IMG/VR virus record: IMGVR_UViG_3300031974_004930
Span: 1-28,591 of that record
Direction: 5' to 3' (one strand)
DNA length: 28,591 bases
Source: a virus
This document shows positions 3,200 to 17,399 of this stretch, piece after piece. The position numbers and the translations under genes were made by a program. Under the pieces are notes generated by a model. It saw nothing but the letters and a program-made list of their open reading frames with translations. It was not told where the DNA came from and did no database searches. Each line of letters starts with the position of its first letter. Positions within the stretch are counted from its first letter, which is position 1.

Positions 3200-5587
3200 A
3201 TGGCTGAGGACAATAAAGGCGGTGGTACTTTTAACCAACCTAAAATTGGTAAAAGACCTTTGCCTAAAGGTTCTGGTGATTTAAAAACAAACTCGCAAGT
3301 GTTTGGCCTTATTGGTCAGCAAGTAATGCGTATTAATAAGCTTAGTGCAGCAGTTGAAAATAGTAATTTTTCTCTTATAGAAGTTTTAAGAGAAGAATTT
3401 GATGCAAGTCATGCAATAGGCGAAAAACAATTAGCAGTTTACAAAGAAGTAAACAAATCTCTACTATCTATCAATGATAGTTTATTACCATTTAAACAAC
3501 TTTCTTTAGAGTTAATGGAAGAAGGTGTTGGAGGTTCAAAAACCGGTACTAATAGCTCTACAAATGCTACTATAGGTGTAAAGGTAACTCCAAGTTCAGG
3601 TGCTCAGGTAGAAGCATTAGAAAAGAAATTATTAAAACTTGAAAAATCCTTAGAGCGTTTAGGAGGTAAAAAAGGTGGCGGTGGTTTCCTAGGGGGTGCA
3701 GCTTTAGGTGGTATTGCAGCTAGAACTGGTGGTGCTATGGCAGGTGGAGCTGCTGGAGGAACATTAGGTGGTGCTGCTTTAGGTCTATTAGGTGGTGTTG
3801 GTTTAGGATTAGCGGCTATAACTGGTGCTCTTTATCTAGGGGCAATGGCAGTAGATAAATTTGGTACCGGGTTACAAAACGTTGCTACAGGTTTAGATGC
3901 TCTTGATAAACTAGATATTACAGCTGATAATTTTAAAAATTTAAATCAAGCAATAAACAATTTAACTGATGATGTTAGTATAAGAGGTGCAAGAGGTCTT
4001 AGAATATTTTCAGGAGCTGCATTTATAGATATGGCAATGGGGCTTGAGGCCCTTAATAATACTGATTTAGATGCTGAAAATTTTAAAGTACTTCAAGAAG
4101 CAATATATCGATTATCTACATCAACTACAGGTTTAGGTGCTATAGGATTAAAAATATTCTCTGGCGTAGCATTTGAAGAAATAGCCAGAGGTATGACAGT
4201 TTTAAGTGAAACTGACTTTGATCAACAAGGTTTAAAAGATGCTGCTGATGGTTTAGGCTATTTAATGAAGCAACTTAACCAATTTAAAGCTTCTATAGCA
4301 ATTCAAATTTTAAGTGGAGCTGATTTAAAAAATCTTTCTGAAGGACTACGTGATTTAGACGGTCTTAGTGATTTAAGTGATCTTAAAGGTAATCTATTAA
4401 ACGCTGGTGATGCAATTGGAAGCTTCTTATTAACATTTGTAGATACTGAAAGATTTTTTGGAAGTGATTTTAAAGACGGTGCTAAAGTAATTGAAAGAAT
4501 AGGTAAAGGTAATGCTTTAGGGCATTTAGCAGACGGTATTGTTACATTATCTGAAATAAAGAATCCAGATGATGCATCATTTGCATTAACTGTGTTAGGT
4601 GTAGGTTTAAGTAATTTACTTAAGCAAATGAATTATATTAATGTAGGAGCTATGAAGTGGCTAGACTCAGGCTCGTTTAAAGATGTAGCTGACGGTATTA
4701 ATGAAATAATGATGTTTACTAATGCAACTAAAGAGGTATTAAATCCAGACGGTACTACATCTTTAGTAAGAAATGCTGATTTAGTAGCTAGTGACTTTGA
4801 AGAAGTAGGAAAGGCATTATCAAGTATTAATGACAGTGTTACCTATATGGGTACATATAATTTAAAAGTTTTGGCAAAAGGTAAAGGTGGTTTCTTTGGT
4901 GATAATATAAATGTGCTAAATGAAGTAGCTGAGGGTCTTCAAAGCCTTCAAAATATAGAAGATTTTGATGTAGATAAATTTATAGGTATAGGTACTGCTC
5001 TATATACATTAGTAACAGCTGCAAGGGGAGAAGGCTTAAGTGATGTATTTCAAAATGAATCTGATATGAGTGCCTTTGACAAATATTTAATTTCATGGGA
5101 TTTTGCAGTAAAATCATTTGCTGGACTATTTAGAAATCCATTACAAGATACTGCAACCGGTTTTCAGCTTCTAGGGCAAGCACTAGATGAGTATAAGAAT
5201 TTGGATGAAAATAAACTAGCTAATTTCGAAAGAGCTGTTCCTGCTCTTAAAAGAGCTATTATACTTTTACAAGATAAAAATATAGGTGAGAACGCTAATT
5301 TTACTGTTCTATCTAGATTCGGTAAAGCGTTAGATAAAATTAATCCAAATAATCTTAGGGCTATATCAGAATTATCAGAATCATTAGGTCTAGCTGTAAG
5401 AGGTATGCCTATAACACCTGATCAAGTAAGTGCTTTAAAAAATTCAGTAGTTAGTGAAATATTATATTCTCAACAAGTTAACGTTATGGAAGGTAGTACA
5501 TCAGTAATTGATAACACTCAAATAACAACTCCATACCAAGGTCAACTTGGTTCATATCAACCTGCAGTAATTCACGTTTCAAAATAA
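3200..5587 (+). CDS. Tail tape measure protein (gp29-like role)
   Basis: 795 aa, the largest protein of the window. Residues 1-110 are polar and helical and 135-155 coiled coil. Residues 158-215 are a Gly/Ala-rich hydrophobic stretch ending in a likely membrane-spanning segment, common in tape measures. From about 220 there are imperfect repeats near 50 residues long, each with a pattern like SGxxFxxxAxGLxxL: clear copies start near 270, 320 and 371, a weaker one near 220, and degenerate copies near 435 and 489. The gene directly follows the tail chaperone pair, the usual place for a tape measure. The T4 counterpart gp29 is 590 aa; a longer protein would mean a longer tail. Assigned from position and composition. 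Confidence 0.7.
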   Translation: MAEDNKGGGTFNQPKIGKRPLPKGSGDLKTNSQVFGLIGQQVMRINKLSAAVENSNFSLIEVLREEFDASHAIGEKQLAVYKEVNKSLLSINDSLLPFKQLSLELMEEGVGGSKTGTNSSTNATIGVKVTPSSGAQVEALEKKLLKLEKSLERLGGKKGGGGFLGGAALGGIAARTGGAMAGGAAGGTLGGAALGLLGGVGLGLAAITGALYLGAMAVDKFGTGLQNVATGLDALDKLDITADNFKNLNQAINNLTDDVSIRGARGLRIFSGAAFIDMAMGLEALNNTDLDAENFKVLQEAIYRLSTSTTGLGAIGLKIFSGVAFEEIARGMTVLSETDFDQQGLKDAADGLGYLMKQLNQFKASIAIQILSGADLKNLSEGLRDLDGLSDLSDLKGNLLNAGDAIGSFLLTFVDTERFFGSDFKDGAKVIERIGKGNALGHLADGIVTLSEIKNPDDASFALTVLGVGLSNLLKQMNYINVGAMKWLDSGSFKDVADGINEIMMFTNATKEVLNPDGTTSLVRNADLVASDFEEVGKALSSINDSVTYMGTYNLKVLAKGKGGFFGDNINVLNEVAEGLQSLQNIEDFDVDKFIGIGTALYTLVTAARGEGLSDVFQNESDMSAFDKYLISWDFAVKSFAGLFRNPLQDTATGFQLLGQALDEYKNLDENKLANFERAVPALKRAIILLQDKNIGENANFTVLSRFGKALDKINPNNLRAISELSESLGLAVRGMPITPDQVSALKNSVVSEILYSQQVNVMEGSTSVIDNTQITTPYQGQLGSYQPAVIHVSK

Positions 5588-5588
5588 T

Positions 5589-5665
5589 TGGCGCGCCTAC
5601 CAGGAGTCGAACCTGGAACCTACAGCTTAGAAGGCTGTTGCTCTATCCAATTGAGCTATAGGCGC
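5589..5665 (-). tRNA. tRNA-Arg (anticodon UCU)
   Basis: A full cloverleaf reads on the - strand. The acceptor GCGCCTA pairs with TAGGCGC, followed by G and an encoded CCA. The anticodon stem ACAGC/GCTGT holds the loop CTTCTAA with anticodon TCT, decoding AGA. The T arm has GGTTCGACTCC. AGA is a favoured Arg codon in this AT-rich sequence (many AGA codons in the tape measure gene). It starts 1 nt after the tape measure stop on the opposite strand, and lies just downstream of the gp32 terminator. Confidence 0.95.
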
Positions 5666-5670
5666 TCAAA

Positions 5671-5701
5671 CAAAAAAATGGGGCAGCATGATACCGCCCC
5701 C
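5671..5701 (-). terminator. Rho-independent terminator after gp32
   Basis: On the - strand GGGGCGG pairs with CTGCCCC (one G-U) around a 7-nt loop, followed by A and seven T (5678-5672). It lies 14 nt after the gp32 stop. The tRNA-Arg begins only about 6 nt beyond the T run, so the tRNA needs read-through, processing from a longer transcript, or its own start. Confidence 0.8.
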
Positions 5702-5714
5702 AGAAGAGAATTAG

Positions 5715-6617
5715 CTATTCAGCTAATTTTTGAAAAAACGACATTGTGTCGTCATCATCAGAATCAGAAGAAAGAGGAACATCTTCGTCAGCTGACGTAG
5801 TTGGAATTGATGGTGCAACTGCCTCAGGTTGAGGTTGAGGTGCTGATGCAACAGTTCCAGCTGTTTCACCTAAAGCCAAAACTCTATAGAGCTTAGTCTT
5901 TAATTCATCATATGACTTGAAGTTTTCGGCAGTAGTAAACTCATTAAGAGCATGCTCTGATTTCCAAACATTTTCAAGTAAGCTGTCGTCACTGCTCAGC
6001 GGAGCTGGACTATCAAATTCCGACTTATCATAATTCCTGTAACCTTCTACATTACGTATTTTAAGCTTGAAGTCAGCTCCAGCCCAAAGGTCAAACGGGT
6101 TAACAGGTTTTTCATCTTCAAATTGTGGATTCATAAGATCATTTAATTTCTCAAAGATCTTTTTACCATATTTGTAGAGGAATACTTTACCTTCATTTTC
6201 AGGTCTAGTAGGATCTTTAACAATATAGATATTAGAATAAAAAGAAAGCCTTCTTTTATATTTTCTAACTAAATCTTTATTAGCTTCAATACCTGAATTC
6301 CAAAGCATAGTATTATACTCAGATACAGGATCTTTCTGACCAATAGTAGTTAAAGATTTTTCGATATACCATTGTCCAGTAGGGCCTTGAAAACCATGAT
6401 CCCAAACTCTAACGAATGGAACGTCTTCACCTTCTGGTGCTGGTAAAAATCTGATTACTGCATAGCCGTTACCTGCTTTATCCACATCAGGTTTCCAGAT
6501 TCTATCGTCTGGTCCGTTCTGCTTCTTAGGACTGCTATCCAGTTTAGTGAGTGCCTCGGTGAGTTTGTTTAGCTCAGAAGCCGAGTTCTTCTTAAGTGCT
6601 TCAAATGATTGCGACAT
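5715..6617 (-). CDS. 32: T4 gp32-like single-stranded DNA-binding protein
   Basis: 300 aa, the same size as T4 gp32 (301 aa). The N-terminal basic domain (about 1-20) is the cooperativity region in T4. The core (about 35-210) shows the family pattern RFLPAPEGEDVPFVRVWDHG and NIYIVKDPTRPENEGKVFLY. The T4-type zinc knuckle is not obvious: no Cys is visible in the core, as in many marine relatives. The C-terminal tail (about 255-300) is Pro/Ala-rich and then strongly acidic (SSDSDDDD), the part that contacts replication partners such as gp59 in T4. The next gene upstream on this strand is gp59, as in T4. Shine-Dalgarno AAGGAG precedes the ATG. The leader holds CCGCAA repeats, a possible autoregulatory site. 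Confidence 0.92.
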   Translation of the reverse strand: MSQSFEALKKNSASELNKLTEALTKLDSSPKKQNGPDDRIWKPDVDKAGNGYAVIRFLPAPEGEDVPFVRVWDHGFQGPTGQWYIEKSLTTIGQKDPVSEYNTMLWNSGIEANKDLVRKYKRRLSFYSNIYIVKDPTRPENEGKVFLYKYGKKIFEKLNDLMNPQFEDEKPVNPFDLWAGADFKLKIRNVEGYRNYDKSEFDSPAPLSSDDSLLENVWKSEHALNEFTTAENFKSYDELKTKLYRVLALGETAGTVASAPQPQPEAVAPSIPTTSADEDVPLSSDSDDDDTMSFFQKLAE

Positions 6618-6627
6618 ATTTTTCTCC

Positions 6628-6663
6628 TTGCGTATTGCGGTATATATTGCGGTTTATTTGCGG
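6628..6663 (-). repeat. CCGCAA tandem repeats in the gp32 leader
   Basis: The 47-nt leader between the gp59 stop and the gp32 ATG contains TTGCGG (+ strand) at 6635-6640, 6647-6652 and 6658-6663, plus a partial TTGCG at 6628-6632. The spacing is 11-12 nt, separated by A/T. As RNA the leader reads CCGCAA with AU spacers and has almost no self-complementarity. T4 gp32 represses its own mRNA by binding an unstructured leader; these repeats are in the right place for a similar operator. The regulatory role is inference. Confidence 0.6.
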
Positions 6664-6664
6664 T

Positions 6665-7258
6665 TTATCTATCATTAAAATAATCCAAAGTAATGGCCTT
6701 AAACTTATCTAGATCAATAGATAGGAACGGCCTATACTTGGTTATTATAGTATATTTATCTTCCCAGATCAAGTCTTTTTGTAAAAATTTATTCCAGGTT
6801 TTACTATAATTAACTAGCATATCTAATATGCACATTGTTTCGATACATACCTCATTCCTTAAGTATAGTCTCAACAAATGAGGATGTCCATACTTTTCGA
6901 CAACAAAGTTTTTATCAAAATCTTTATCAAGATTTTCTAACTCATTTTTATATGTATAAGTTAAAGCCTCTTGTCTTTTTTTCCATTTTCTATAAACGTC
7001 TTCTGGTGCTGTTTCTCTCAATTCACCAATCCAGAAGTCTTTATCGCCATCGACGATATTAGCTAATAAAAAATTTTCTACATCTTTATGTTTAGATAAC
7101 TTCATAAAGAAATATTTGTCTTTTCTAATATTAAAAGCATGCTCTGATGCTCTTACCTTACCATTGTATGTAAAGTAATTATAATGTTCTGTAGTAAAAT
7201 GCTGCTTAAGAGCAAGATATTTTATATAAACCTCATAAGGGGATATCGTACTTTTCAT
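6665..7258 (-). CDS. 59: T4 gp59-like replicative helicase loader
   Basis: About 197 aa (T4 gp59 is 217). It aligns well to T4 gp59 by eye: an N-terminal helix (YEVYIKYLALKQHF), then Y-N-Y..YNGKVRAS with RKDKYFFMKLSKH, and later ANIVDGDKDFWIGEL. gp59 loads the gp41 helicase on gp32-coated forked DNA. An in-frame ATG exists at 7321, but 7258 has a clear Shine-Dalgarno (AAGAGGT) and gives the T4-like N terminus, so I chose it; the gene then overlaps the upstream oxygenase by 26 nt. It is directly upstream of gp32, as in T4. Confidence 0.85.
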   Translation of the reverse strand: MKSTISPYEVYIKYLALKQHFTTEHYNYFTYNGKVRASEHAFNIRKDKYFFMKLSKHKDVENFLLANIVDGDKDFWIGELRETAPEDVYRKWKKRQEALTYTYKNELENLDKDFDKNFVVEKYGHPHLLRLYLRNEVCIETMCILDMLVNYSKTWNKFLQKDLIWEDKYTIITKYRPFLSIDLDKFKAITLDYFNDR

Positions 7259-7943
7259 AGTACCTCTTAAATCTTTCGTATCCCTCTGAAGGGATTTGAT
7301 CATTTTCACTCCACCAATCATAAAATTCCTCTAAATCATATAACCATATAATAGTTGAATATCTAATACCTTCAGTAACAGGAGTAACTCCATGATACAT
7401 CCTTGAATCAAATATAACAGCGTCACCTAAATTTAAATCAACATTATTGGAAACTGACTCATAATGATTCTTACGGTCTCCATCAGGTTGAATTTTAAAG
7501 TCACCTCCATTATAATCGCTTTTATTGTTTAGTGCAACTGTTATTGAGACTTTTCTTTTAGGGCGTGAGTTAACAATAAAAAAATCTTCTGGATCAGAAA
7601 TTTTTCTACCACGATTATCTACATGCACGGTATAATCAATATCATCAGTATGATAGTCAAATTTTGCCTTTAACCTGGAATCATACTTAAGAATACTAAT
7701 ATACTCATTAGTATAAAGTTTTTTATTAAAAAGCATATTAGCTTTTTTTATAATTTTAGCAGGAATAGGTCCTAGCTTATGAAATGGTAAAAGAACTTGT
7801 TCTGTTATTCTTGACGCATCAATTGTTACATCAAGACCATTACTTTCTATTGCAGTAGCTCTTTCCCAATCAGTATTAAAACTTGAACAAAGATGATCTA
7901 CTTCTTCTCTTGAAAGAAGATTTCTAATAACAAAACTTTTCAT
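7233..7943 (-). CDS. 2OG-Fe(II) oxygenase, prolyl-4-hydroxylase type
   Basis: 236 aa. It shows the double-stranded beta-helix signature: H98-x-D100 (YHTDDID), distal H184 (MYHGVTPV) and R194 for 2-oxoglutarate (GIRYSTIIW). Between them are ITVALN and the YNGGDFKI turn typical of P4H-like enzymes that need 2-oxoglutarate, O2 and Fe(II). The substrate is unknown; phage members could modify proteins or DNA. The gene sits between gp33 and gp59, genes that are adjacent in T4, and its start abuts the gp33 stop. It ends in an aromatic/acidic tail (EEFYDWWSEND). One of six such folds in the window. Confidence 0.85.
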   Translation of the reverse strand: MKSFVIRNLLSREEVDHLCSSFNTDWERATAIESNGLDVTIDASRITEQVLLPFHKLGPIPAKIIKKANMLFNKKLYTNEYISILKYDSRLKAKFDYHTDDIDYTVHVDNRGRKISDPEDFFIVNSRPKRKVSITVALNNKSDYNGGDFKIQPDGDRKNHYESVSNNVDLNLGDAVIFDSRMYHGVTPVTEGIRYSTIIWLYDLEEFYDWWSENDQIPSEGYERFKRYYEKYDIPL

Positions 7944-8206
7944 TAGATAGGTAGTTTATTACCTGATGCCTTTAATAGTTTTTTACCTTCAGATTCAGCA
8001 GCAAGCTTAGCTTTTAATACATGGCTATTCTTTACTAAGGAAGCTATAGTTTCAATCTCAACATTATTTTGATCGGCATAATGTGTAAGTGCGTCTAAGT
8101 AGCCAATTTTTTTATCGTTTACAAAGGATTCAATCGAAAGAGCAAAATCTCTTACGGTAATTATTTTTTCGTCAATTTGTTGTTGGATGCTTTTTTTATC
8201 CTGCAT
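7943..8206 (-). CDS. 33: T4 gp33-like late transcription coactivator
   Basis: 87 aa; T4 gp33 is 112. The central pattern SIESFVNDKKIGYLDAL then ETIASLVKNSHVLKAKLAAE matches the T4 gp33 block around its SYLEATTAFLEEN helix. In T4 gp33 bridges RNA polymerase, the sliding clamp and the late sigma gp55, acting at TATAAATA promoters. The order gp33-gp59-gp32 is T4-like apart from one inserted gene. It overlaps the lysozyme end by 11 nt. The presence of gp33 agrees with the late-promoter octamers in this window. Confidence 0.75.
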   Translation of the reverse strand: MQDKKSIQQQIDEKIITVRDFALSIESFVNDKKIGYLDALTHYADQNNVEIETIASLVKNSHVLKAKLAAESEGKKLLKASGNKLPI

Positions 8207-8642
8207 TTCTCATTCTTTCAACTAACCTTACTGATCTATTGCCTACTTGATGATACCATCTTGAGTCCATCATTTGATTAGCTGCCTCATCATAATTTTC
8301 TTCATTAAGAGCTCCAATAAATTTTTTAAATTTACTTAATCGAGTTCTTCCCATATTAAACATCATATTAATAAGTATTTCTTGCACTTCGTCTAACTTC
8401 TCATCAAAGTCAGGGAATAATACTTTACACTCATTAACAGTAACTTCAAGATCATGATCAAAGACTTCTAAACATCTTTCTTCCGAAACTGGTGTTCCTA
8501 CTTCTTGTCCGTATTCAGGATCTGAATCTAATACTAAATGACCAATACCGAATGTAGGATAACCTAAATGATCTTTGTAGATCTCATAAACTATACCTTC
8601 GTCAATTTTTAATTGATCAATTACTTTTTGTTTATCGTACAT
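8196..8642 (-). CDS. e: T4-type lysozyme (GH24 endolysin)
   Basis: 148 aa (T4 lysozyme 164). The catalytic triad has exact T4 spacing: E15, D24 and T30 (LKIDEG, IYKDHLGYPT), followed by the FGIGHL motif. The C-terminal half has INMMFNMG and SRWYHQVGNRSVRL, as in T4 (AINMVFQMG, SRWYNQTPNRAKRV). It cuts peptidoglycan at the end of infection. There is no signal peptide, so a holin is needed; no certain holin is seen nearby. Shine-Dalgarno CGGAG lies 5 nt before the ATG, with a sigma70-like promoter just upstream. Confidence 0.93.
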   Translation of the reverse strand: MYDKQKVIDQLKIDEGIVYEIYKDHLGYPTFGIGHLVLDSDPEYGQEVGTPVSEERCLEVFDHDLEVTVNECKVLFPDFDEKLDEVQEILINMMFNMGRTRLSKFKKFIGALNEENYDEAANQMMDSRWYHQVGNRSVRLVERMRNAG

Positions 8643-8655
8643 ATTTACTCCGTGT

Positions 8656-8684
8656 ATTATATAATAGATTATGTGTTAGTTCAA
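8656..8684 (-). promoter_or_regulatory. Sigma70-like promoter before lysozyme
   Basis: On the - strand TTGAAC, 17 nt, TATAAT. The expected start would fall at or inside the CGGAG Shine-Dalgarno, giving a leader of only about 8-12 nt. It lies in the 56-nt gap between 8642 and 8699. Confidence 0.5.
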
Positions 8685-8698
8685 CTATTTATTAGACC

Positions 8699-9160
8699 CT
8701 AAATAGTGCCTACTCTAGGACATTGTTCCGGATATTTTTTAACTTTATCAATTATTTTATAATTATGATAAGCAACTAAAGCTATCATTCCTGTTGCCCA
8801 CATAATGTCTTTATTTTCTACAACATATTTATTATAGTCTGGATGATAAATTGGATATAATGTAATTGCTTTATGTACTACCAATCTTTCTAGTGACGGT
8901 CTCTTTGGTAGTAGAGGATTGGCTTCATATACACATTCATACTGCATTGCTTTATTTGTAGAATCAACATCAGCGATATTTACAAGAGTTAAAGCAGCCC
9001 ACCAATACCAATCAGCTGGTTCTAACCAGTCTTTCTTAATTGACAGTGTAAATGGTGACGGGCTCTGTCTTTCCTTTAACAGTGATGGTATCGACTTTAG
9101 AGAATTCTCCAGATGTACAGCTTTCACGAGTGAAGGATGATAGCAACAAGTCCACCCCAT
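8699..9160 (-). CDS. Putative membrane protein, start unresolved
   Basis: The convincing part begins near 9030 with DWLEPADWYWWAALTLVNIAD, then YEANPLLPKRPS and a C-terminal hydrophobic segment (IMWATGMIALVAYHNYKII). This pattern, an aromatic helix, a Y-E-x-NP-x-L motif and a second membrane segment, recurs in small membrane proteins of marine phages. The start is unclear. In-frame ATGs at 9160, 9208 and 9328 all overlap the cyclase gene by 125-293 nt and lack a Shine-Dalgarno. The frame opened at 9328 has a signal-peptide-like N terminus, but the overlapped cyclase residues are conserved catalytic sequence, so that may be chance. A non-ATG start near 9040 (ATT overlapping the cyclase TAA) or the ATG at 8947 is also possible. 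Confidence 0.5.
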   Translation of the reverse strand: MGWTCCYHPSLVKAVHLENSLKSIPSLLKERQSPSPFTLSIKKDWLEPADWYWWAALTLVNIADVDSTNKAMQYECVYEANPLLPKRPSLERLVVHKAITLYPIYHPDYNKYVVENKDIMWATGMIALVAYHNYKIIDKVKKYPEQCPRVGTI

Positions 9161-10853
9161 CGTAATTGCGTGTTTGGCTTTCGAGTCTAGCTGCAAGGTT
9201 GACGGCATCTCCAATGACGGAATAGTCAAATCTAACTTCTGATCCCATGTTTCCGACGATGCATTCACCTGTATTGACACCAATGCCAACATTGATAGGA
9301 GGAAGGTTGAGAGGTTTAAGTTCTTCATTTAATTTTTTTGTTGCTTCTATTATTTCAATTGACGTTTTAACAGCCATATCGGCATGGTTATCACAGGGTA
9401 AAGGAGCATTCCAAAACGCCATGATACAGTCACCCATATATTTGTCAACCGTTCCACCATTATTTAGTATTATCTTTGTTTGTAAGTCTAAAAATTTATT
9501 AACTAGTTCCACAAGACCTTCCGGATCATCATTATTTTTATAATGCTCACTAATTGGAGTAAAGCCACATATATCCATAAACATAAAACTCATCTCTTTT
9601 CTTTCTCCACCAAGCTTAAGTAATGATGGATCATCTTGTAATTGTTTAACTAAGTCAGGTGAAACATAAGTTCCAAACTGTTTCTTTATCTCCTGCTTTT
9701 GTTTATACGTATTATAAAATTGTACAAATGCGCCATGGCTAAATACTAATACAGTAGATATAATTATCCAGGTTGGATCAAATAAGAGATATTTTGAATA
9801 GAAAACTGAAGAAGAAGCTAAACCAACAAACCCAACGAAAAAGAGGCTGGCAACACCGGATATCCAAACGGCAGCTCGACTTAATAGAACGAGACAAAGA
9901 AGACCAAGAAGTGCTTGAGCGATTAGCTCAAAGAAAAAGAAATGGTTGGGACGAGTAATAACAGTACCGTCTATTATTGTTTTAACTAAGTTAGCTTGAA
10001 TATCGTGAGGATACATTGCACCAACTGGAGTAGGAATTATATTAGTACCTTCAAAGGTAGCTCCTATTATCAAGATACTACCTTCTGGTATACTCTCTCC
10101 CCTTATATCCCCTAAGCTAACGCGTTTAAATTTGTTCCAATATGTGTTGTATACAGTTCCATTATCTAATGTAGAGATCTTATCATACGCAGGGATACGT
10201 ACCCATTCTATACCAACATCGTTAGTTTTTATTTGATATGAAATATCGCCAACGGCAACTCTTAGAATTTCTAAAGCAAAAGAAGGATATACCTTTTTAT
10301 TAGCTGAAACAACTATAGGTACTTTTCTTACTACTCCATCAACATCAGGCAAGGCGCCTATAGAACCGTAACCGTTTGCTGAATTAGCTAGAGGTTCCCA
10401 TGGTATTAAGATACCAGGAAAATCTAAAGTATATTCTTGAGCTGGTACTCTTCCTAAAGTGGCTGTACCGACATGAAGTTCTTTTTCTGTTTGTATTTGA
10501 TTGGTAGGAGCTGTAGCTAATATAGAAGGATAATATTGAAGAGTTTCTGCTAAGTTCCAATCCCCGTTGAATCTATCTTTTTCTGAAAGAATAACAGAAA
10601 GAGCAACGAGGTTATTAGGAGGTATATTATTAAGTTCAAATGCTAGTTCTTTTCTAGGCCAGGGCCATTGACCTAATTTTTGTATAGACTTTTCATCTAT
10701 ATCAACTAATATTATTTGTTCAGATATTTTCTCTTCGTGATTACGTTGAAGCATATCAAAATAATTTAATCTTGTTGCTTCTAATAAAAATGGATCAGCT
10801 ACTCTTAAAGATAAAAGAGCTAGTAATGTTATTCCGGCGTGCCAGAGTTTCAA
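9036..10853 (-). CDS. CHASE2-domain class III adenylate/guanylate cyclase
   Basis: 605 aa with a TTG start (AAGG 7 nt before) directly after the curlin stop. Order: membrane segment about 4-20; CHASE2 extracytoplasmic sensor about 28-300 (signature VDIDEKSIQKLGQWPWPR); three membrane segments about 306-325, 330-351 and 360-380; a cytosolic linker; and a class III cyclase domain about 418-605. Catalytic residues are intact: metal-binding D427 and D475, purine-site K471 and D549, transition-state N552 and R556 (GDAVNLAARLES). K and D at the purine site favour cAMP. It should turn ATP into cAMP in response to a periplasmic or membrane cue. CHASE2 cyclases often sit beside FecR-domain genes in bacteria (from memory), and one is present here. 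Very unusual for a phage. Confidence 0.9.
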   Translation of the reverse strand: MKLWHAGITLLALLSLRVADPFLLEATRLNYFDMLQRNHEEKISEQIILVDIDEKSIQKLGQWPWPRKELAFELNNIPPNNLVALSVILSEKDRFNGDWNLAETLQYYPSILATAPTNQIQTEKELHVGTATLGRVPAQEYTLDFPGILIPWEPLANSANGYGSIGALPDVDGVVRKVPIVVSANKKVYPSFALEILRVAVGDISYQIKTNDVGIEWVRIPAYDKISTLDNGTVYNTYWNKFKRVSLGDIRGESIPEGSILIIGATFEGTNIIPTPVGAMYPHDIQANLVKTIIDGTVITRPNHFFFFELIAQALLGLLCLVLLSRAAVWISGVASLFFVGFVGLASSSVFYSKYLLFDPTWIIISTVLVFSHGAFVQFYNTYKQKQEIKKQFGTYVSPDLVKQLQDDPSLLKLGGERKEMSFMFMDICGFTPISEHYKNNDDPEGLVELVNKFLDLQTKIILNNGGTVDKYMGDCIMAFWNAPLPCDNHADMAVKTSIEIIEATKKLNEELKPLNLPPINVGIGVNTGECIVGNMGSEVRFDYSVIGDAVNLAARLESQTRNYDGVDLLLSSFTRESCTSGEFSKVDTITVKGKTEPVTIYTVN

Positions 10854-11540
10854 TTAGTTACCTTGTGAGACAGAAACAGTACAACCACCTACAGTTTGAC
10901 AATTCTGAGTTAATGAGTATGATTGATTAGTAGATCCTTGCTGTAAAAGATTAAGTGTAGTATTTTCAGAACCTTGTAAGATAATACTAGCTGAATGAGA
11001 ACCAGATCCTTTTTGCATTAAAGATGTATCTGAATAAGATGATGAACCGTAATAATAAACATGACTATAATGTGAGCCTGTTCCTTCTTGCCATGCTTCA
11101 TGATCTACTTCACTAGCATGAATATCAATCCAATGGGTATGTGTACCGCTTTGATAAACGTCTACAGTATTATTATTACCCCATATATGTCTGCCATACG
11201 TTGCACCATTCCATTGTTCAACTGATTCAGTATTACCTGAACCGTCTACATCACCACCCCAACTTAAACCTGAACCCCAATATGAAACCCAACCTATATA
11301 ATTGTCACCACCGTTTTGTTCGAATGTAAAAGAATTATTAGCGTGATCAAATGAAAAATTAATTTCATTACCATATCCAATTTGAGTTACATTTAAGCTA
11401 AAATTATCTCCACTGCCTACTTGCTCTACATGAACATGATTATCATCAGTAGGACCAGCAAAAACTGGTATAGCAATTAACATAGACATTGTCCATGGTC
11501 TTATCCAATATTTAAAAAAGGTGTTCCAAATATTCCTCAT
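10854..11540 (-). CDS. Curlin-like (CsgA/CsgB-type) amyloid repeat protein
   Basis: 228 aa. An N-terminal signal peptide (cut near A28) is followed by repeats with the curlin pattern Q-x-G-x-x-N (EQVGSGDN, QIGYGN, LQGSENTT, QQGSTNQ). E. coli CsgA has five repeats of S-x5-Q-x-G-x2-N-x5-Q that stack into an amyloid fibre. The middle is rich in Gly, Ser, Trp and His. The mature N terminus (TDDN...EQ.G....QIG.GN) matches the other curlin-like protein at 13144-13875, and both have two Cys close together near the C terminus. Start supported by GAGGA. It overlaps the upstream small gene (ATGA) and abuts the cyclase. Predicted to be exported through CsgG. Confidence 0.75.
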   Translation of the reverse strand: MRNIWNTFFKYWIRPWTMSMLIAIPVFAGPTDDNHVHVEQVGSGDNFSLNVTQIGYGNEINFSFDHANNSFTFEQNGGDNYIGWVSYWGSGLSWGGDVDGSGNTESVEQWNGATYGRHIWGNNNTVDVYQSGTHTHWIDIHASEVDHEAWQEGTGSHYSHVYYYGSSSYSDTSLMQKGSGSHSASIILQGSENTTLNLLQQGSTNQSYSLTQNCQTVGGCTVSVSQGN

Positions 11541-11689
11541 CCTTGTCCTCTATATTTCTTCCAAGATCTTTTTTTGTTTTTATTCATTGTAGCTCTAGCT
11601 ACATTATTTCTTCCTTGCGAAGTTTTTTTACCCCTGATTCCAGCAGTAGGTGTATGCATTGATTGATATGATTTAGATTTAGTCGCCAT
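11537..11689 (-). CDS. Small basic protein (50 aa)
   Basis: Lys/Arg-rich throughout, with the central pattern TAGIRGKKTSQGRNNVARAT and a C-terminal KKYRGQG. It starts 1 nt after the stop of the previous gene and its TGA overlaps the curlin ATG (ATGA), so it is tightly coupled. By memory similar peptides occur in marine T4-like phages next to a homologue of the 66-aa upstream neighbour. A nucleic-acid-binding or ribosome-associated role would suit the charge, but nothing proves it. Confidence 0.65.
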   Translation of the reverse strand: MATKSKSYQSMHTPTAGIRGKKTSQGRNNVARATMNKNKKRSWKKYRGQG

Positions 11690-11890
11690 CTATTCCCAAA
11701 CTAATTTAACGCCTCTTCGGGCTAGTTCATTTCTGCATTTCTGCTTTATTTTTGGTTTCTGTCCATTATTTATATAGTCAATAAGTTCCTGTTTAGGAGT
11801 TTGCTTAATATAAAAATGTTCTATAGGTGCATTCGCAGGACTTCCACCTCTTACGAATTTTTTTGCTGACGGTTTAAATTTTGTTGGCAT
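11690..11890 (-). CDS. Conserved hypothetical phage protein (66 aa)
   Basis: Basic N terminus (MPTKFKPSAKKFVRGG), then IEHFYIKQTPKQELIDYINN, ending KCRNELARRGVKLVW. I recognise the HFYIKQTPK...L..YIN pattern from small marine T4-like phage proteins, but no function is known. AGGAG lies 7 nt before the ATG. Predicted soluble and helical. It sits inside the curli locus between the FecR gene and the second curlin gene, so the phage-type genes and the curli genes are interleaved rather than in separate blocks. Confidence 0.75.
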   Translation of the reverse strand: MPTKFKPSAKKFVRGGSPANAPIEHFYIKQTPKQELIDYINNGQKPKIKQKCRNELARRGVKLVWE

Positions 11891-12003
11891 AATAATACTC
11901 CTGCTCTTCTAGCATCTTTTATTTTTGCTTCATCTCTTATCTTTTTTCTTTTATCAGAGATAGGTTTAAGCATCCATAAATATTCTGTTTTAATATTATT
12001 CAT
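11851..12003 (-). CDS. Possible small charged protein (50 aa)
   Basis: Open frame from ATG 12003 with a weak AAAGG upstream, reading MNNIKTEYLWMLKPISDKRK and continuing as a charged helix before ending in the overlap with the 66-aa gene (40 nt). It fills an otherwise empty stretch after the FecR gene. The last dozen residues are Gln/Asn-rich and may be overlap noise. Not recognised; the alternative is a plain intergenic leader. Confidence 0.4.
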   Translation of the reverse strand: MNNIKTEYLWMLKPISDKRKKIRDEAKIKDARRAGVLLCQQNLNRQQKNS

Positions 12004-12032
12004 ATTATATAGCCTTTTATCATAAAAATCAA

Positions 12033-13190
12033 CTAGTTAGCTTGTTTAATTACTATGATTATATCATCACCACCGTTACCAAGAATAGTACCTTGATAGC
12101 CATCAACGTCAGTTGATAAGCTAAAGCTTGCTCCTGCTCCAAATGTAATACTAATAACTCCATTAACATTTCTATAAACTACAAGCTTACCATCTTCTTC
12201 AAATACATTATATTGACTATCATTATTTAAACCAAATTGAGCTCCTTTAAGAGCCCAGCCACCAATATTACCTGTTCCTGCTTGAGCATCACCTAACTCT
12301 TCTGTTGTTCTTAATAACTCTTCTACAGCATCTAATAAATCTGGTAAGAAGTCACCAGCTAGATAATCAATGTCTATTCTACCGTTTCTTGCATCATATT
12401 CTGGGTCGTTAGCATAATCATCATAATCTTTATCTAGTTCATCATATTCTAAAAAGTCAACATCAAGTATACCTTGATCTTGATTCATATCTGCTCTTGC
12501 TTCTTCTTCTATTTGCTCTTTTACTTCAGGTGGTGGATTAACAATAAACATATTATCAATCATATTAGGTGTAATGTTATTAAGCGTTAAAGTTTGACTA
12601 GGAGGTGTATCTAAAGTATTAACCATTGTAGCTTGATATGCTTCATTTAAAGTTATTGTACCACCTAAATTAGTAACTGTTATTTCACCAGATGCGTCCC
12701 CGTTTTCATCTGGTAATAATATAATTAATGACCTACCTATTTCATCTACTGTAGTTGTAAAATCTGTTCCTCTAATACCAATAGTAGCAGTAGGTGTTTT
12801 TATATCTATATTTTTTTTGTTCATTATAGCAAGTTTACCAGATGCAAATCTTGCTGTACCTTGAACAAATTGCATAGTCATTTTTGACTTACTAGGATCC
12901 GGATCATAAATGACTTCGTCTATTAAAATTTTTGTATGTTCAGTAAGAGCTAATTCTGCTTCATCTTTAAATTCAATAAGCATTCTACCGTTAGCAGTTT
13001 CAGCGGTATCATATAACTCTATTTCTGGAAGAAAATCCTTTGATAGGATAAGTTGGTCGTTATTTCTAACTATTTGACCGGCACCGGTCTGCTCAATTAT
13101 GTCACCGATGGGGTCGGCAAAGACCCCATTGATGAGTAACAAATTAAGAATCGTTAGCTGCGTCTTTTTGATTAATTTGTATTGTAGCAT
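12033..13190 (-). CDS. Secreted FecR-domain protein
   Basis: 385 aa. Signal peptide about 1-25 (KK then a hydrophobic run to VFADP). A FecR domain spans about 28-150: GRMLIEFKDEAELALTEH, then VQGTARFASGKL and a strong DIKTPTATIGIRGTDF block, which is the family hallmark. Residues about 225-290 are very acidic with many Asp/Glu/Tyr. The C-terminal part (about 300-385) is Gly-rich and beta-like, ending near NGGDDIIIVIK. Unlike FecR itself it has no obvious membrane anchor to an anti-sigma region, so it is probably periplasmic or exported. Its first 47 nt overlap the end of the curlin gene. The pairing with a CHASE2 cyclase suggests a sensing module; this is inference. Confidence 0.8.
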   Translation of the reverse strand: MLQYKLIKKTQLTILNLLLINGVFADPIGDIIEQTGAGQIVRNNDQLILSKDFLPEIELYDTAETANGRMLIEFKDEAELALTEHTKILIDEVIYDPDPSKSKMTMQFVQGTARFASGKLAIMNKKNIDIKTPTATIGIRGTDFTTTVDEIGRSLIILLPDENGDASGEITVTNLGGTITLNEAYQATMVNTLDTPPSQTLTLNNITPNMIDNMFIVNPPPEVKEQIEEEARADMNQDQGILDVDFLEYDELDKDYDDYANDPEYDARNGRIDIDYLAGDFLPDLLDAVEELLRTTEELGDAQAGTGNIGGWALKGAQFGLNNDSQYNVFEEDGKLVVYRNVNGVISITFGAGASFSLSTDVDGYQGTILGNGGDDIIIVIKQAN

Positions 13191-13875
13191 TATCAGATGT
13201 AATATCTAAATTAATAGTAGCGTTTGGAGTAGAACACCCTGTTGCAGCAGGTGTACATGTACCACTAATTTGGTTAATATCTATATCAGCTGAATCACCA
13301 TTAAGTTCAACAGTTAAGGACTGTGAACCGTCATTTTGTAATGTATTAATGTTATTACTATCTCCAGTAATATCAAAATTCCATGTTATATCATCAGCTT
13401 CCCAATCTATATCAAATATATTAGAACTACCTAATAATATTAGATCAGCATCTAATCTTTCTGCGCTTGCTACATAACCTTGATCTAAATCAAAAGTATT
13501 AGAATCTCCGGTTACGTCAAAGTTAATATTAGATGAATCTGAACTTCCAGTTTCACCAATACTCCAATCTATTTCATTTGAATCGCCAGTAAAATCTAGC
13601 TTATAGTATGAACTATCAGCTGTAACTGAACCAAATAAAATGTTTTGACTGCCTAAAAAATCTAAATCAAACTCTAGAGTAGCACCAGTTATTAACATAT
13701 CTGAGCTTGAACTAGAAAAATCAGTTCCACCTATTTTGTTACCAAAACCAATTTGGTCTATGTATAACTTTAAGGTGTCACCAGTTTGTTCGATTAAAAT
13801 TTCGTTATCATCAGTGGCTTGCGCGAAAACAAAAGAAGTCGACAATAGCAATGCTATACTTATAAGTTTATTCAT
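13144..13875 (-). CDS. Curlin-like repeat protein, acidic
   Basis: 243 aa. Clear signal peptide (about 1-19, cut after VFAQ). The mature part starts TDDNEILIEQTGD and runs as repeated strands of the form (I/V)TGDSNxIDxxQ, with many Asp, Asn, Ser and Thr and hardly any Lys or Arg. Spacing of Q-x-G and G-(D/S)-x-N recalls curlin repeats but is looser than in E. coli CsgA. Two Cys (about 207 and 214) could form a disulfide. The ATG overlaps the CsgG stop by 8 nt, so this is likely a CsgG substrate made with its pore. It differs from the other curlin mainly by its acidity and may be the main subunit or a nucleator. Confidence 0.75.
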   Translation of the reverse strand: MNKLISIALLLSTSFVFAQATDDNEILIEQTGDTLKLYIDQIGFGNKIGGTDFSSSSSDMLITGATLEFDLDFLGSQNILFGSVTADSSYYKLDFTGDSNEIDWSIGETGSSDSSNINFDVTGDSNTFDLDQGYVASAERLDADLILLGSSNIFDIDWEADDITWNFDITGDSNNINTLQNDGSQSLTVELNGDSADIDINQISGTCTPAATGCSTPNATINLDITSDNATIQINQKDAANDS

Positions 13876-14881
13876 TTTCGTTTACCTTTTCTTTGTGAGA
13901 ATGCAAGTCATTCGTACCATTACTTTGGTGCGGATGTCTATGACCATCCTCTATTACCCAGTACCCTCTATCGTGGCCCTGGTAGATTAATTCCAGTACT
14001 CCAGCTTCAATAGCTGTACGTACCGCGTATGTCACCGATTCATTATTTCCCACACCATCTTCAAACTCGACTAATTGAGTTCCTTGCTCGATAAAACGGA
14101 AGACGTCTCCTCCTGAGCCATAACTCAGTAAAGTCTTTCTCGTTTGAACATTTAATAATATTTCACCAGTGAGAACCGACACTGCTCTCATTGAAACCGT
14201 AACAACATCTTGACGATATCGTTTACTATAACCTATTCCTAGAGTACGAGCACCTCGTCCTCCAGATTTGATATTAGTATCATACCCTATTATTCCACCT
14301 TCTATAATTATACCAGCGAATAATAATGGTTGAATACCTTTATCATCTTGACCTGTTTTATTTGCCATATCAGTTCTTGCTGATCTGATAATTTGTCTTT
14401 CTCTAACTAAGTGATCTATTCCATTTCTTTCTACTACTCTAAACCAGGTACCATTACCTGCTGTTTTAAGAGCATCAATAACCATTTCTACACCACCTTG
14501 AGTTACAGCGGTAGAGAAATCAGCTATTCCTTCTCTAGCTTTTCTTTGCCCTGTTTTATCTATAAAATTATAAACGGTAACAACTGGCATTTCTTTTGCT
14601 GGAGGTAGTTGTAATAATTCTAGGTAAGAAGGTAATCTAACTACTTCAGCTTTTTCTACACATATTTGCTTTGTTTCAATATATTTACGAGTACCAGTAT
14701 AACCTTGTTTGACTATACCAAATAAATCATCGTTTAATATACCATCAGAATCAAAGTCAGTATTCCATCCTTGGGCATATTTACCTTCTCCGTATTCACA
14801 GTTAGCTGGACCCTCAGACCACTGAGGCATTTGTGCACAACCTTGTAAGAGTAATACTAAAGCTAAAAGATATCTAACCAT
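13868..14881 (-). CDS. csgG: CsgG-like curli secretion pore lipoprotein
   Basis: 337 aa (E. coli CsgG 277). Lipobox LLQGC with lipidated C15. The CsgG domain spans about 99-308 and matches E. coli by eye: VYNFIDKTGQ, FSTAVTQGG, RQIIRSA, then GGIIGYDTNIKSGGRGAR, LGIGYSKRYRQDVVTVSMR, TGEILLNVQTRKTLLSY and VFRFIE. CsgG forms a nine-subunit outer-membrane channel for curli subunits. Differences: about 50 extra residues after the lipobox with a DFDSDG motif, a His-rich C-terminal tail (about 312-330), and a changed constriction loop: Phe is kept (F122), Asn is Asp (D121), and the E. coli Tyr has no clear match. It overlaps csgF and the curlin gene by 8 nt each. Confidence 0.95.
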   Translation of the reverse strand: MVRYLLALVLLLQGCAQMPQWSEGPANCEYGEGKYAQGWNTDFDSDGILNDDLFGIVKQGYTGTRKYIETKQICVEKAEVVRLPSYLELLQLPPAKEMPVVTVYNFIDKTGQRKAREGIADFSTAVTQGGVEMVIDALKTAGNGTWFRVVERNGIDHLVRERQIIRSARTDMANKTGQDDKGIQPLLFAGIIIEGGIIGYDTNIKSGGRGARTLGIGYSKRYRQDVVTVSMRAVSVLTGEILLNVQTRKTLLSYGSGGDVFRFIEQGTQLVEFEDGVGNNESVTYAVRTAIEAGVLELIYQGHDRGYWVIEDGHRHPHQSNGTNDLHSHKEKVNENE

Positions 14882-15353
14882 TGTCTGGATCTTGTCCGAA
14901 GTTTCCTGTACCTACTGGTATCTCTATTACTGTTTCAGTACCGTCTTCTGATACTACCGTTAATCTTATAAACTCTGCACCTGATTCATCCGTAATAACT
15001 TCCCAAGTAATAATATTACCTTCTAAAGCAAATGATCCGAACCCTGCAGGGCTATCATTAGCAAACATTGATTCAACTAATTGTTTAGCGAACTGTGCGT
15101 AAATTCTTGATTCTAAGTTACGAATGAACTTAGCTAAGGTGGTATTTTCTGCTTCTCTCTCAGCTGTTTTTCTAGCTGATTCAAGAGCTTCTTGTATCGC
15201 TTTCTTTCTTGAGTGTTCTTGGTTTTCTATTGTAAGGTAATGCGCACCCTGACCAATTCCACTGAATGATGGATTTTTAAACTCATGGACTATTTCCTGA
15301 GCAAATACTGATGATGTAATTAAAAATAAGCTACTTACGACTACCTTTTTCAT
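14874..15353 (-). CDS. csgF: CsgF-like curli accessory protein
   Basis: 159 aa (E. coli CsgF 138). Signal peptide about 1-18 (cut after VFA). The mature N terminus, EFKNPSFSGIGQG, keeps the F-x-N-P-x-F-x-G signature of the CsgF peptide that plugs into the CsgG channel and makes a second constriction. A helix follows (about 45-98) and then a beta-rich C terminus (NIITWEVITD, FIRLTVVSEDGTETVIEI), as in the E. coli head domain that couples CsgB to the pore. The helix is longer than in E. coli. AAAGGA lies before the ATG; the end overlaps csgG. This is the order csgF-csgG, with no csgE recognised. Confidence 0.88.
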   Translation of the reverse strand: MKKVVVSSLFLITSSVFAQEIVHEFKNPSFSGIGQGAHYLTIENQEHSRKKAIQEALESARKTAEREAENTTLAKFIRNLESRIYAQFAKQLVESMFANDSPAGFGSFALEGNIITWEVITDESGAEFIRLTVVSEDGTETVIEIPVGTGNFGQDPDNG

Positions 15354-15636
15354 TGACTTTTTCCTTTAATTTTTCCACTTCTCTGTATTCTAATACTACA
15401 TTAACTTTTTGTTGAAGTCGAATAAGATCTTGATCAAGCATTCTAGTTTGATCAATTACTCTTATCAATGCCATGTGCATTTCTTCTATTTGAGGTTCAA
15501 TATGTTCTCCAATGAACCACCATACATAATAAATGAAATACCCCATACCTATTGACATTATAACGGGAAAGCCATAATCATTAACAAGTTGTACTAAAGT
15601 AGGATCCTCAGATGCGACTAAAACTATATCATCCAT
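15331..15636 (-). CDS. Small single-pass membrane protein with coiled coil (second copy)
   Basis: 101 aa. A short N terminus is followed by a membrane segment about 22-43 (FPVIMSIGMGYFIYYVWWFI) and then a long amphipathic helix (about 50-100). Layout resembles small BhlA/UviB-like holin-type or YvrJ-like phage proteins, but no function is proven. It looks paralogous to the next gene: both have G-x-P-(I/V) before the membrane segment and MG(Y/F)FI(Y/F) inside it. Its start overlaps the upstream stop (TAATG) and its end overlaps csgF by 23 nt, so it is part of the curli transcript. Confidence 0.75.
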   Translation of the reverse strand: MDDIVLVASEDPTLVQLVNDYGFPVIMSIGMGYFIYYVWWFIGEHIEPQIEEMHMALIRVIDQTRMLDQDLIRLQQKVNVVLEYREVEKLKEKVNEKGSRK

Positions 15637-15932
15637 TAGTCTCTCCTTACATCCAACTTGTCATCTTCGATAAAATTCTCAGCACGAGCAATTCTTTCGA
15701 TATCGGGTTTTAACTCAAGTGCACTACTAACAAGAAGATCTATTTTAATCATCTCATTACTCATAGTGCGTGCTCTATTTTCAAGCATTTTACAGAAACC
15801 TGTTAACGTCTTAATATCGTCAACAATTCCTTCTAGAATTTGTTTAATAACGGTAAAAATAAAGAAGCCCATCACTAAGGATCCAGCAATGGGAGCTCCG
15901 AGTTCGCCGACTAATTCTAAAAAGGTTTCCAT
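15636..15932 (-). CDS. Small single-pass membrane protein with coiled coil (first copy)
   Basis: 98 aa. Membrane segment about 13-35 (GAPIAGSLVMGFFIFTVIKQ), then a helix (about 38-85) with likely coiled coil and a charged tail ending DDKLDVRRD. Paralogue of the following gene. It is first in the curli set, 27 nt after the carbamoyltransferase stop. Its weak AGG ribosome site is in a hairpin (15935-15950), so translation of the first curli-set gene may be damped. The helix would be cytoplasmic or periplasmic depending on topology, which I cannot fix. A holin-like role is possible. Confidence 0.75.
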   Translation of the reverse strand: METFLELVGELGAPIAGSLVMGFFIFTVIKQILEGIVDDIKTLTGFCKMLENRARTMSNEMIKIDLLVSSALELKPDIERIARAENFIEDDKLDVRRD

Positions 15933-15959: not shown

Positions 15960-17399
15960 TTAATAAAAGACTTTAACCCCGTACTTCTCTTCAAACCTAT
16001 TTGCATCGGAAATATTATTTACCATAGGTTCACCTCTTATGTTAAGAGAAGTATTAAGAAGAACTGAACAGCCTGTTCTCTTCTTCCATTCCTCTAGAAT
16101 TGCTCTAAAGATTGTAGGTTCGTTTTTAGAAACGGTTTGTATTCTTGATGTGCCATCTTTGTGAGTAACAGCAGGTAGATTAGGATCAATACAATCAACT
16201 ACCATTTGCATATACGGTGAAACATAAGATGGTGCAAAATGTTTCATAGTATCTTCTTCTAATACAGCAGGAGCAAAAGGTCTAAACTTTTGTCTTCGTT
16301 TTATAGTATTAACTTGATCTTGTGCATTAGCTCCTCTCGGGTCAGCAAGTAAAGATCTATTACCAAGTGCTCTAGGGCCAAATTCAGCAGGACCTACAGC
16401 TACACCACACATACCATACTTTTTAATATGAATAACTATATCTCTAGCTAATGCTTTAATGGGTTTAGATGGTTCTATATTAAAACCAAGGTAAGGATGT
16501 TCCCAATTTACTTTTTTGCCGTAGGCTAAAGCGGCAGCGCCAAGCGAGCCCCCTGCATCACCAGGATTAGGAAATATCCATAAGTTACCATGACATTGCT
16601 CATGTAGTTTAGTATTAGCTACACAGTTAAGAGCCACCCCGCCACCGTAAACAACATTATCAGAATATGTTAAAGCTTTATCAAATAAAAACTCTAATTT
16701 ATTCTCTAAAATAATTTGTGCATTGAAGGCAATATCAGCAGGTTTATATCTATCAAGGCCCATTGCTTTAACCATTGATTTAGGAATACCTTTATGTAAA
16801 TTATGACTAAACAAACTAAAAAGTTTAGGTAGTAAATCTTTTTTATACTTACCAAATGCAGCCATACCCATAAAGATGTATTCTTCATCTAAAGGTCTAA
16901 GTCCTACAAAGTGAGTTAATGCAGTATACCACAGACCTATTGAATTAGGATAGCTTTTAGAAAATACTTTTTTGTATTGAGCATAACCATCTTTATCATA
17001 ACTACATTTCCATATAGTTGTTGTATCCCATTCACCAATACTATCAACTACTACAGCAGCTGCTTCATCATAATTAGAAGTTTGAAACGTTGCTGCGGCA
17101 TGCGACTTATGATGATGATGAGTTTGGTTAGGTTCCCATGCTAATTGTCTTTTTGAAAAAACAGTATTAAATTGACCAGCATATAACTGCCTAGTTTTTT
17201 TAAGAAATGGTTTTTCAAAGAAAGAATTAACTTTTATATCAAAGTTATTATTAATATACTCTTTAAGCTCAGATGAGACATATTTCTCATGCTTATTACC
17301 TGAAAACCTCTCTGAATGAGAGGCAAATACGATGTTGCCGTTTTCGTCGATTACAGATGCTGCTGCATCATGAAATCCTTCACTCCATCCTAAATACAT
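15960..17399 (-). CDS. NodU/TobZ-family carbamoyltransferase
   Basis: 479 aa. N-terminal domain starts with GWSEGFHDAAASV; the His motif HHHHKSH (94-100) is the family's metal/carbamoyl site; then MGMAAFGKY, YGGGVALN (251-258) and the C-terminal GPRALGNRSLLADPR block (341-355). The enzymes use carbamoyl phosphate and ATP to O-carbamoylate sugars or natural products. Shorter than NodU (about 560-600 aa), which I believe is usual for marine T4-like phage copies. Shine-Dalgarno GAGGTGAT lies before the ATG, 3 nt after the SGNH gene. A role in decorating a phage or host surface glycan is plausible because SGNH-like proteins and a glycosyltransferase lie in the same region. Confidence 0.92.
   Translation of the reverse strand: MYLGWSEGFHDAAASVIDENGNIVFASHSERFSGNKHEKYVSSELKEYINNNFDIKVNSFFEKPFLKKTRQLYAGQFNTVFSKRQLAWEPNQTHHHHKSHAAATFQTSNYDEAAAVVVDSIGEWDTTTIWKCSYDKDGYAQYKKVFSKSYPNSIGLWYTALTHFVGLRPLDEEYIFMGMAAFGKYKKDLLPKLFSLFSHNLHKGIPKSMVKAMGLDRYKPADIAFNAQIILENKLEFLFDKALTYSDNVVYGGGVALNCVANTKLHEQCHGNLWIFPNPGDAGGSLGAAALAYGKKVNWEHPYLGFNIEPSKPIKALARDIVIHIKKYGMCGVAVGPAEFGPRALGNRSLLADPRGANAQDQVNTIKRRQKFRPFAPAVLEEDTMKHFAPSYVSPYMQMVVDCIDPNLPAVTHKDGTSRIQTVSKNEPTIFRAILEEWKKRTGCSVLLNTSLNIRGEPMVNNISDANRFEEKYGVKVFY

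Follow-up and report, generated by a model that had tools for sequence, protein, structure and literature searches.

Why would a marine phage carry a membrane-bound sensor cyclase at the end of a set of curli genes, and what else is encoded where the cyclase gene ends? We address this question for a stretch of viral DNA of 28,591 nucleotides (IMG/VR record IMGVR_UViG_3300031974_004930), which is called the window below. Its features are collected in Table 1. Matches to PHROGs include head closure, DNA end protector, tail tube and baseplate hub proteins as well as a T4-type single-strand binding protein and a helicase loader. As these T4-like head, tail and replication genes are found on the contig, the carrier is a T4-like marine phage, and the phage origin of the cyclase gene, which had been assumed when only the sequence had been read, is borne out by the structural and replication genes on the same contig. 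A tRNA-Arg gene (tct) was noticed at 5589-5665, between tail and replication genes. A Nol-like carbamoyltransferase is encoded at 15960-17399, upstream of the curli module; such a gene is also annotated near the module in phage HTVC008M.

Table 1. Features of the window in the region of the cyclase gene and the curli module.
Feature	Position	Strand	Characteristics
Lysozyme-type endolysin gene	8196..8642	minus	PHROGs endolysin / tail lysozyme; just downstream of the overlapping gene
Overlapping gene	8699..9328	minus	+1 frame relative to the cyclase; 209 aa; DUF5658-like membrane protein
Double-coding stretch, 293 bases	9036..9328	minus	cyclase codons 509-605 plus stop; residues 1 to ~97 of the overlap protein
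CHASE2-class III adenylate cyclase gene	9036..10853	minus	TTG start; 605 aa; annotated phage homologues
Curlin-repeat protein	10854..11540	minus	Curlin_rpt E 4.6e-4, 0.2 bits under the Pfam cut-off; weak CsgB/CsgA models
FecR-domain protein	12033..13190	minus	PF04773 E 1.3e-9; proposed periplasmic partner of CHASE2
Second curlin-like protein	13144..13875	minus	weak CsgA model E 7.5e-4; shares an iterative profile with the curlin at 10854..11540
CsgG outer-membrane secretion pore	13868..14881	minus	PF03783 E 3.1e-48
CsgF	14874..15353	minus	PF10614 E 1.5e-11
Two paralogous proteins of ~100 aa before CsgF	15331..15932	minus	both phrog_18771

The cyclase is complete in both of its parts. The CHASE2 domain (PF05226) covers residues 9-318 with 127.2 bits and nearly the entire model (positions 2-256 of 257), while Guanylate_cyc (PF00211) covers residues 419-600 with 69 bits, both over the cut-off. 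The complete sensor that the sequence-only reading had described is thus confirmed, with a hydrophobic segment following the CHASE2 match as is characteristic of CHASE2 receptors. The two hydrophobic segments (6-24 and 303-341) are consistent with one N-terminal helix and a C-terminal helix bundle. All catalytic residues named in that reading (D427, K471, D475, D549, N552, R556) are indeed there, including the two metal aspartates (D427, D475) and the transition-state asparagine and arginine (N552, R556) of class III cyclases. They are near-invariant across 82 aligned phage sequences, the exceptions being one D427Y (L039) and one N552S from a Melnitz phage. L039 and L083, the latter with a broken frame, are two relatives in which the cyclase is damaged. 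Judged by a dN/dS of 0.08-0.09 across the entire gene relative to the closest relatives, the cyclase gene is under strong purifying selection. Among solved structures, adenylate cyclases are nearest in sequence and match closely. K471 and D549, which we take to be the ATP-holding pair of class III adenylate cyclases, are conserved in the window protein, and ATP is therefore the predicted substrate. The window cyclase is probably an active, cAMP-making sensor enzyme.

We considered whether the cyclase is novel to phages and rejected this because annotated homologues exist in isolates, hundreds are found in IMG/VR and the module has been published. Many phages already reported with the gene were also what the sequence-only reading had named as a refutation. 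A survey of a phage collection gave eight matching records, six of them almost full-length and annotated as adenylate/guanylate cyclase; two of these six are records of the single phage HTVC008M, and the other four are Melnitz isolates. In IMG/VR, a search with the window protein gave 217 relatives, and a search with the HTVC008M protein gave at least 585. The available part of PMC9599517 (2022) describes a module of CsgF, CsgG, CsgA/B, FecR and adenylate cyclase in podo- and myophages, including a cyclase tree. Curli genes are also described in PMC7029224 and PMC9004378, with "cyclase" absent from the main text of both. For analysis, 80 of the 217 window-query relatives, 80 of the at least 585 HTVC008M-query relatives and 80 of at least 534 bacterial relatives were kept, together with two further sets of relatives (80 of 135 and 80 of 169).

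It is the 3′ end of the cyclase gene that holds a component missed by annotation, as a second, exported membrane protein appears to start in its last sixth. The overlapping ORF usually starts at an ATG formed by cyclase codons N509-E510, has 97 codons inside the cyclase gene and extends 283-337 bases beyond the cyclase stop (75 sequences with a contig reaching the end). The view that this ORF is simply a neighbour of the cyclase gene was rejected; it starts out of frame inside the cyclase gene, and the overlap is kept open. Its predicted product consists of a signal-peptide-like N-terminus (recognized by eye and by hydrophobicity), a GWTCCY stretch and a DUF5658-like C-terminal membrane domain. 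Of 61 members, 49 matched DUF5658 (PF18902) at E≤1, with a best value of 2.5e-6. The window copy is without any Pfam match, and four standalone copies, which are described below, stay under the gathering cut-off of 25.2 bits. A first profile of the downstream ORF had been built on stop-to-stop ORFs that included the overlap, and its overlap as well as its weak bacterial hits were discounted; a profile of the C-terminal domain only found no DUF5658-like gene near the cyclase in bacterial loci. The predicted structure of the overlap protein is of middling confidence (pLDDT 70.8), and a PDB fold search with this model gave no resembling fold. No match to the downstream protein was found in annotated phage records.

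Comparison between relatives shows the cyclase 3′ end to be double-coding. The set used here comprises 80 sequences, the window and L004-L082; L001, which is the window itself, and L083 with its broken cyclase frame were left out. In all 80, the +1 frame is open throughout the overlap, the mean probability of an open frame upon synonymous-codon shuffling being ~1.7e-4 per sequence. This frame is closed in every one of the 78 HTVC008M-clade and 78 Melnitz-clade cyclases (two of 80 having been dropped in each clade due to an incomplete 3′ end), with 7 stops in HTVC008M and 9 in Melnitz, and none of these has the domain downstream. Bacterial cyclases (79 loci, one of 80 being dropped because it is without a long cyclase ORF) have an open +1 frame in four cases, all with a GC content of at least 0.63, and in none of 18 cases with GC below 0.45.

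Strong conservation of the cyclase sequence in the overlap causes the frames of relatives to be correlated. One might therefore attribute the open +1 frame to chance or codon bias and assume that the downstream protein starts only after the overlap. The counts are not independent because the sequences are related, and we used a tree simulation with 46 representatives as a control. When third-position evolution was simulated along this 46-tip tree, all tips were open in none of 300 runs, with a mean of 254 stops compared to 0 observed. Synonymous change is also reduced: among the 46 representatives, the synonymous difference is 0.23-0.27 at codons 529-576 compared to about 0.45 elsewhere, and it is 0.335 over codons 511-603 compared to 0.452 over codons 419-508 (Mann-Whitney p 0.0014). 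An open frame beyond chance expectation and reduced synonymous change, the two properties by which overlapping genes are recognized, are thus found together. With the shuffle probabilities, the tree simulation, 156 related cyclases with a closed frame, the synonymous constraint and a motif match to a standalone form of the protein all standing against it, we consider an origin of the open frame by chance scarcely credible.

The content of the second frame is also unlike that of shuffled sequences. The first 24 residues of the overlap protein have a hydrophobicity of 2.41 compared to 1.17 in shuffles, and the TCC motif is encoded in 80 of 80 sequences but only in 1.2% of shuffles. It needs D568 to be encoded as GAC (80 of 80, with a background of 39%) and xTG codons at positions 569 and 570 (80 of 80 each). 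The start-site ATG is present in 72 of 80 sequences, while 58% were expected by shuffling; the remaining eight loci have ATG at -6 (six), ATG at +1 (one) or TTG at -7 (one). A Shine-Dalgarno-like motif is found ahead of 47 of the 72 ATG starts, with 19.5 expected from synonymous shuffles.

These start-site data bear on the question of whether a separate protein is made at all. The two frames share a strand and a +1 shift within the overlap would lead directly into the downstream domain, so that programmed ribosomal frameshifting might produce a cyclase-DUF5658 fusion. Such a fusion would cost the cyclase its C-terminus. Moreover, the stop-free stretch reaches at most nine codons further upstream of the start codon in all 80 loci, those without the usual ATG have a start nearby, sites resembling ribosome-binding sites are enriched, and the N-terminus resembles a signal peptide, as it does in the standalone version. 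We therefore regard frameshifting as very unlikely and continue with a separately initiated protein.

Some phages of the Melnitz clade have an ordinary, non-overlapping gene for this protein, located just upstream of the cyclase within the same module. These standalone copies have their own signal-peptide-like start and carry a motif at the matching place, which reads G-D-T-C-C-Y-S in several copies and N-Y-C-C-Y or W-H-A-P-Y in others. MAFFT aligns this motif onto the overlap-encoded TCCY motif. A profile that was built from the N-termini of four related standalone copies and stops short of the membrane domain matches each of the 80 overlap-encoded N-termini, with a median of 20.5 bits (best 31.4), while the controls (HTVC008M-clade, Melnitz-clade, bacterial and shuffled sequences) reach at most 7.1 bits. 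The predicted structures of both forms show an N-terminal helix, a helix, the TCC loop, a helix and three long helices; both predictions are of middling confidence and the underlying alignments share rows.

According to the cyclase phylogeny, phage and bacterial cyclases are separated at a support of 96, and sequences with the overlap form a single clade (SH-aLRT 100) with the HTVC008M and Melnitz clades as sisters. The phage collection searched contains no isolate of the overlap clade. This was a quick tree from 70 rows picked from the phage and bacterial sets, and it contains some long branches. In the overlap region, the cyclase shares homology with its bacterial counterparts; the cyclase gene is therefore the older of the two, and the +1 frame was superimposed on it, most simply in a single event. 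The likeness of the N-termini may have two reasons: the standalone form may have descended from the overlapping one, or both may have converged under the same demands. No ghost of cyclase sequence, from which the direction of gene movement could be read, is visible in the standalone genes.

We then turn to the module to which both genes belong. The tight coupling to curli genes, which had been suggested from the TTG start and the close fit behind a curlin gene, was corroborated, as the curlin stop codon TAA directly precedes the cyclase TTG and the module is conserved. Iterative profiles built from the window proteins detected FecR in 64, CsgG in 52, CsgF in 49 and curlin in 72 of 83 loci. The module genes occur in a single order on the cyclase strand, and many of the misses represent contigs that end near the cyclase. 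This order is CsgF-CsgG-curlin-FecR-curlin-cyclase, and the window has the gene set and order of the pelagiphage curli module. By eye, small phage-type ORFs (11541-12032) appear to interrupt the module between FecR and the second curlin of this order. One or two histidine kinases are placed ahead of CsgF in the available part of PMC9599517. The phrog_18771 paralogues in the window fall short of the length of a kinase and have no Pfam match at E≤5, including none to kinases.

What appears to be the module's counterpart in cells is found in a Caulobacteraceae MAG (L084), whose cyclase ranks first in BLAST identity (40%) among the bacterial matches listed. At 3974-10031, it encodes csgF-csgG-curlin-curlin-fecR-CHASE2 cyclase, with the fecR and cyclase genes overlapping by 17 bases. 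Glycosyltransferases, a peptidase and a TonB-type receptor were read from the surrounding ORFs. This gene order indicates that FecR and the cyclase can be part of a bacterial curli operon. When the phage-derived FecR profile was applied to 79 bacterial loci, many of which are short, there were 15 matches within 4 kb of the cyclase and 5 farther away.

The adjacency of both genes in L084, together with Campylobacterota gene clusters in which, according to the available part of PMC9239204, CHASE2 cyclases mostly occur with a FecR-domain outer-membrane protein, leads us to favour a periplasmic partnership of FecR with CHASE2 over a function in iron regulation. The name FecR refers to ferric-citrate signalling, and an iron-dependent regulation of the curli module, independent of the cyclase, has been proposed in PMC9599517 (available part). 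We consider such a role improbable for the window, as no sigma factor is among the PHROGs matches of the window proteins tested and as FecR and the CHASE2 cyclase are paired in L084 and in Campylobacterota. A finding that speaks against FecR as the ligand of CHASE2 comes from Sinorhizobium, where the FecR-domain gene smc02177 was dispensable for plant-signal perception (PMC5498481, available part).

Taken together, we assign a probability of roughly 0.82 to the following reading: the window carries a curli (type VIII secretion) module that ends in a membrane-bound CHASE2-class III adenylate cyclase with a double-coding 3′ end, the module would signal from FecR or curli to cAMP, and the DUF5658 protein would be an accessory. 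The periplasmic CHASE2 domain would sense the FecR-domain protein or the assembly state of curli, the cytoplasmic domain would convert ATP to cAMP, and a cAMP-binding regulator of the host may respond. This receptor is placed in the host because no cNMP-binding domain (PF00027) was found in 13 phage records; the domain is present in 86 of 115 genomes of the class that was sampled. The DUF5658 protein may serve as a membrane accessory of the cyclase or of the curli machinery, its synthesis being coupled through the overlap. The position of the standalone copies, just upstream of the cyclase and within the same module, supports such a partnership. In a marine alphaproteobacterium (L103), genes for cNMP-binding proteins appear to flank the CHASE2 cyclase, and the phages are without such a cluster; the cNMP-binding matches lie at 270392-275182 of contig C1 of G013 and the cyclase at ~272141-274210 of the record, the two contigs being assumed to be identical.

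The sequence-only reading had interpreted the cyclase as a general device for second-messenger takeover, which raises host cAMP upon an outside cue. Intact catalytic and sensor domains under selection would fit this. However, among the 83 loci, all contigs of sufficient length show the cyclase at the end of a curli module that includes FecR, which makes a curli-linked role at least as likely, and a cAMP receptor is lacking in the 13 phage records. Furthermore, the transition-state residue N552 is replaced by serine in 77 of 78 Melnitz-type cyclases (L003, L244-L323), and this clade keeps the gene nevertheless. Activity is likely to be lower or altered there, so that a role purely in making more cAMP does not fit every member. 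We thus consider general takeover unlikely and prefer curli-linked signalling.

If the overlap is as described, codons of the cyclase also specify, in another frame, the export signal and the cysteine motif of a second protein. What would be new is a long double-coding stretch over the catalytic core of an enzyme, kept in a widespread clade of marine phages. Because the same protein is a normal gene in sister phages, these provide natural controls for the origin and the cost of gene overlap. The phage curli module gains an unannotated component, and the finding that FecR and cyclase also belong to a curli operon of a bacterium is relevant to the regulation of the module. We tentatively suggest, at less than even odds, that in phage curli modules the CHASE2 cyclase has the DUF5658-like protein as an obligate partner and that one clade wrote its export signal and cysteine motif into codons of the catalytic domain, which would fix the ratio of the two proteins and prevent their separate loss. 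A literature search gave no paper with DUF5658 and none combining "overlapping gene" and "pelagiphage". As far as searched, the overlapping gene was not found in print; the cyclase itself is already on record.

Compared with known systems, the pelagiphage module of PMC9599517 is the closest, having the same gene set and order, a phage host and the cyclase as last gene. The available part of its text does not mention a CHASE2 sensor or an overlapping gene, takes FecR as an iron regulator and states that FecR and cyclase are not within bacterial T8SS operons, whereas L084 is a bacterium with the full set. HTVC008M gp019 (46% identity) and Melnitz gp104 (38% identity) have the domain architecture and the module of the window but are without the overlapping DUF5658 gene, their +1 frame being closed, and Melnitz is without N552. 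The Campylobacterota clusters (PMC9239204, available part) resemble the window in having a CHASE2 plus class III domain protein with a FecR-domain gene nearby; their phosphodiesterase and TPR genes are not seen in the window, which has curli genes instead. CHASE2 has also been connected to Sinorhizobium CyaD1 (PMC5498481, available part). With same-strand, out-of-frame overlaps that arose by overprinting, as presented in the available part of PMC8227390, the window shares a new frame over an older, conserved gene. It differs from those cases in that the overlap supplies the N-terminus only, with the remaining domain encoded beyond the older gene, and in that the overlap-encoded protein also occurs elsewhere as an ordinary gene.
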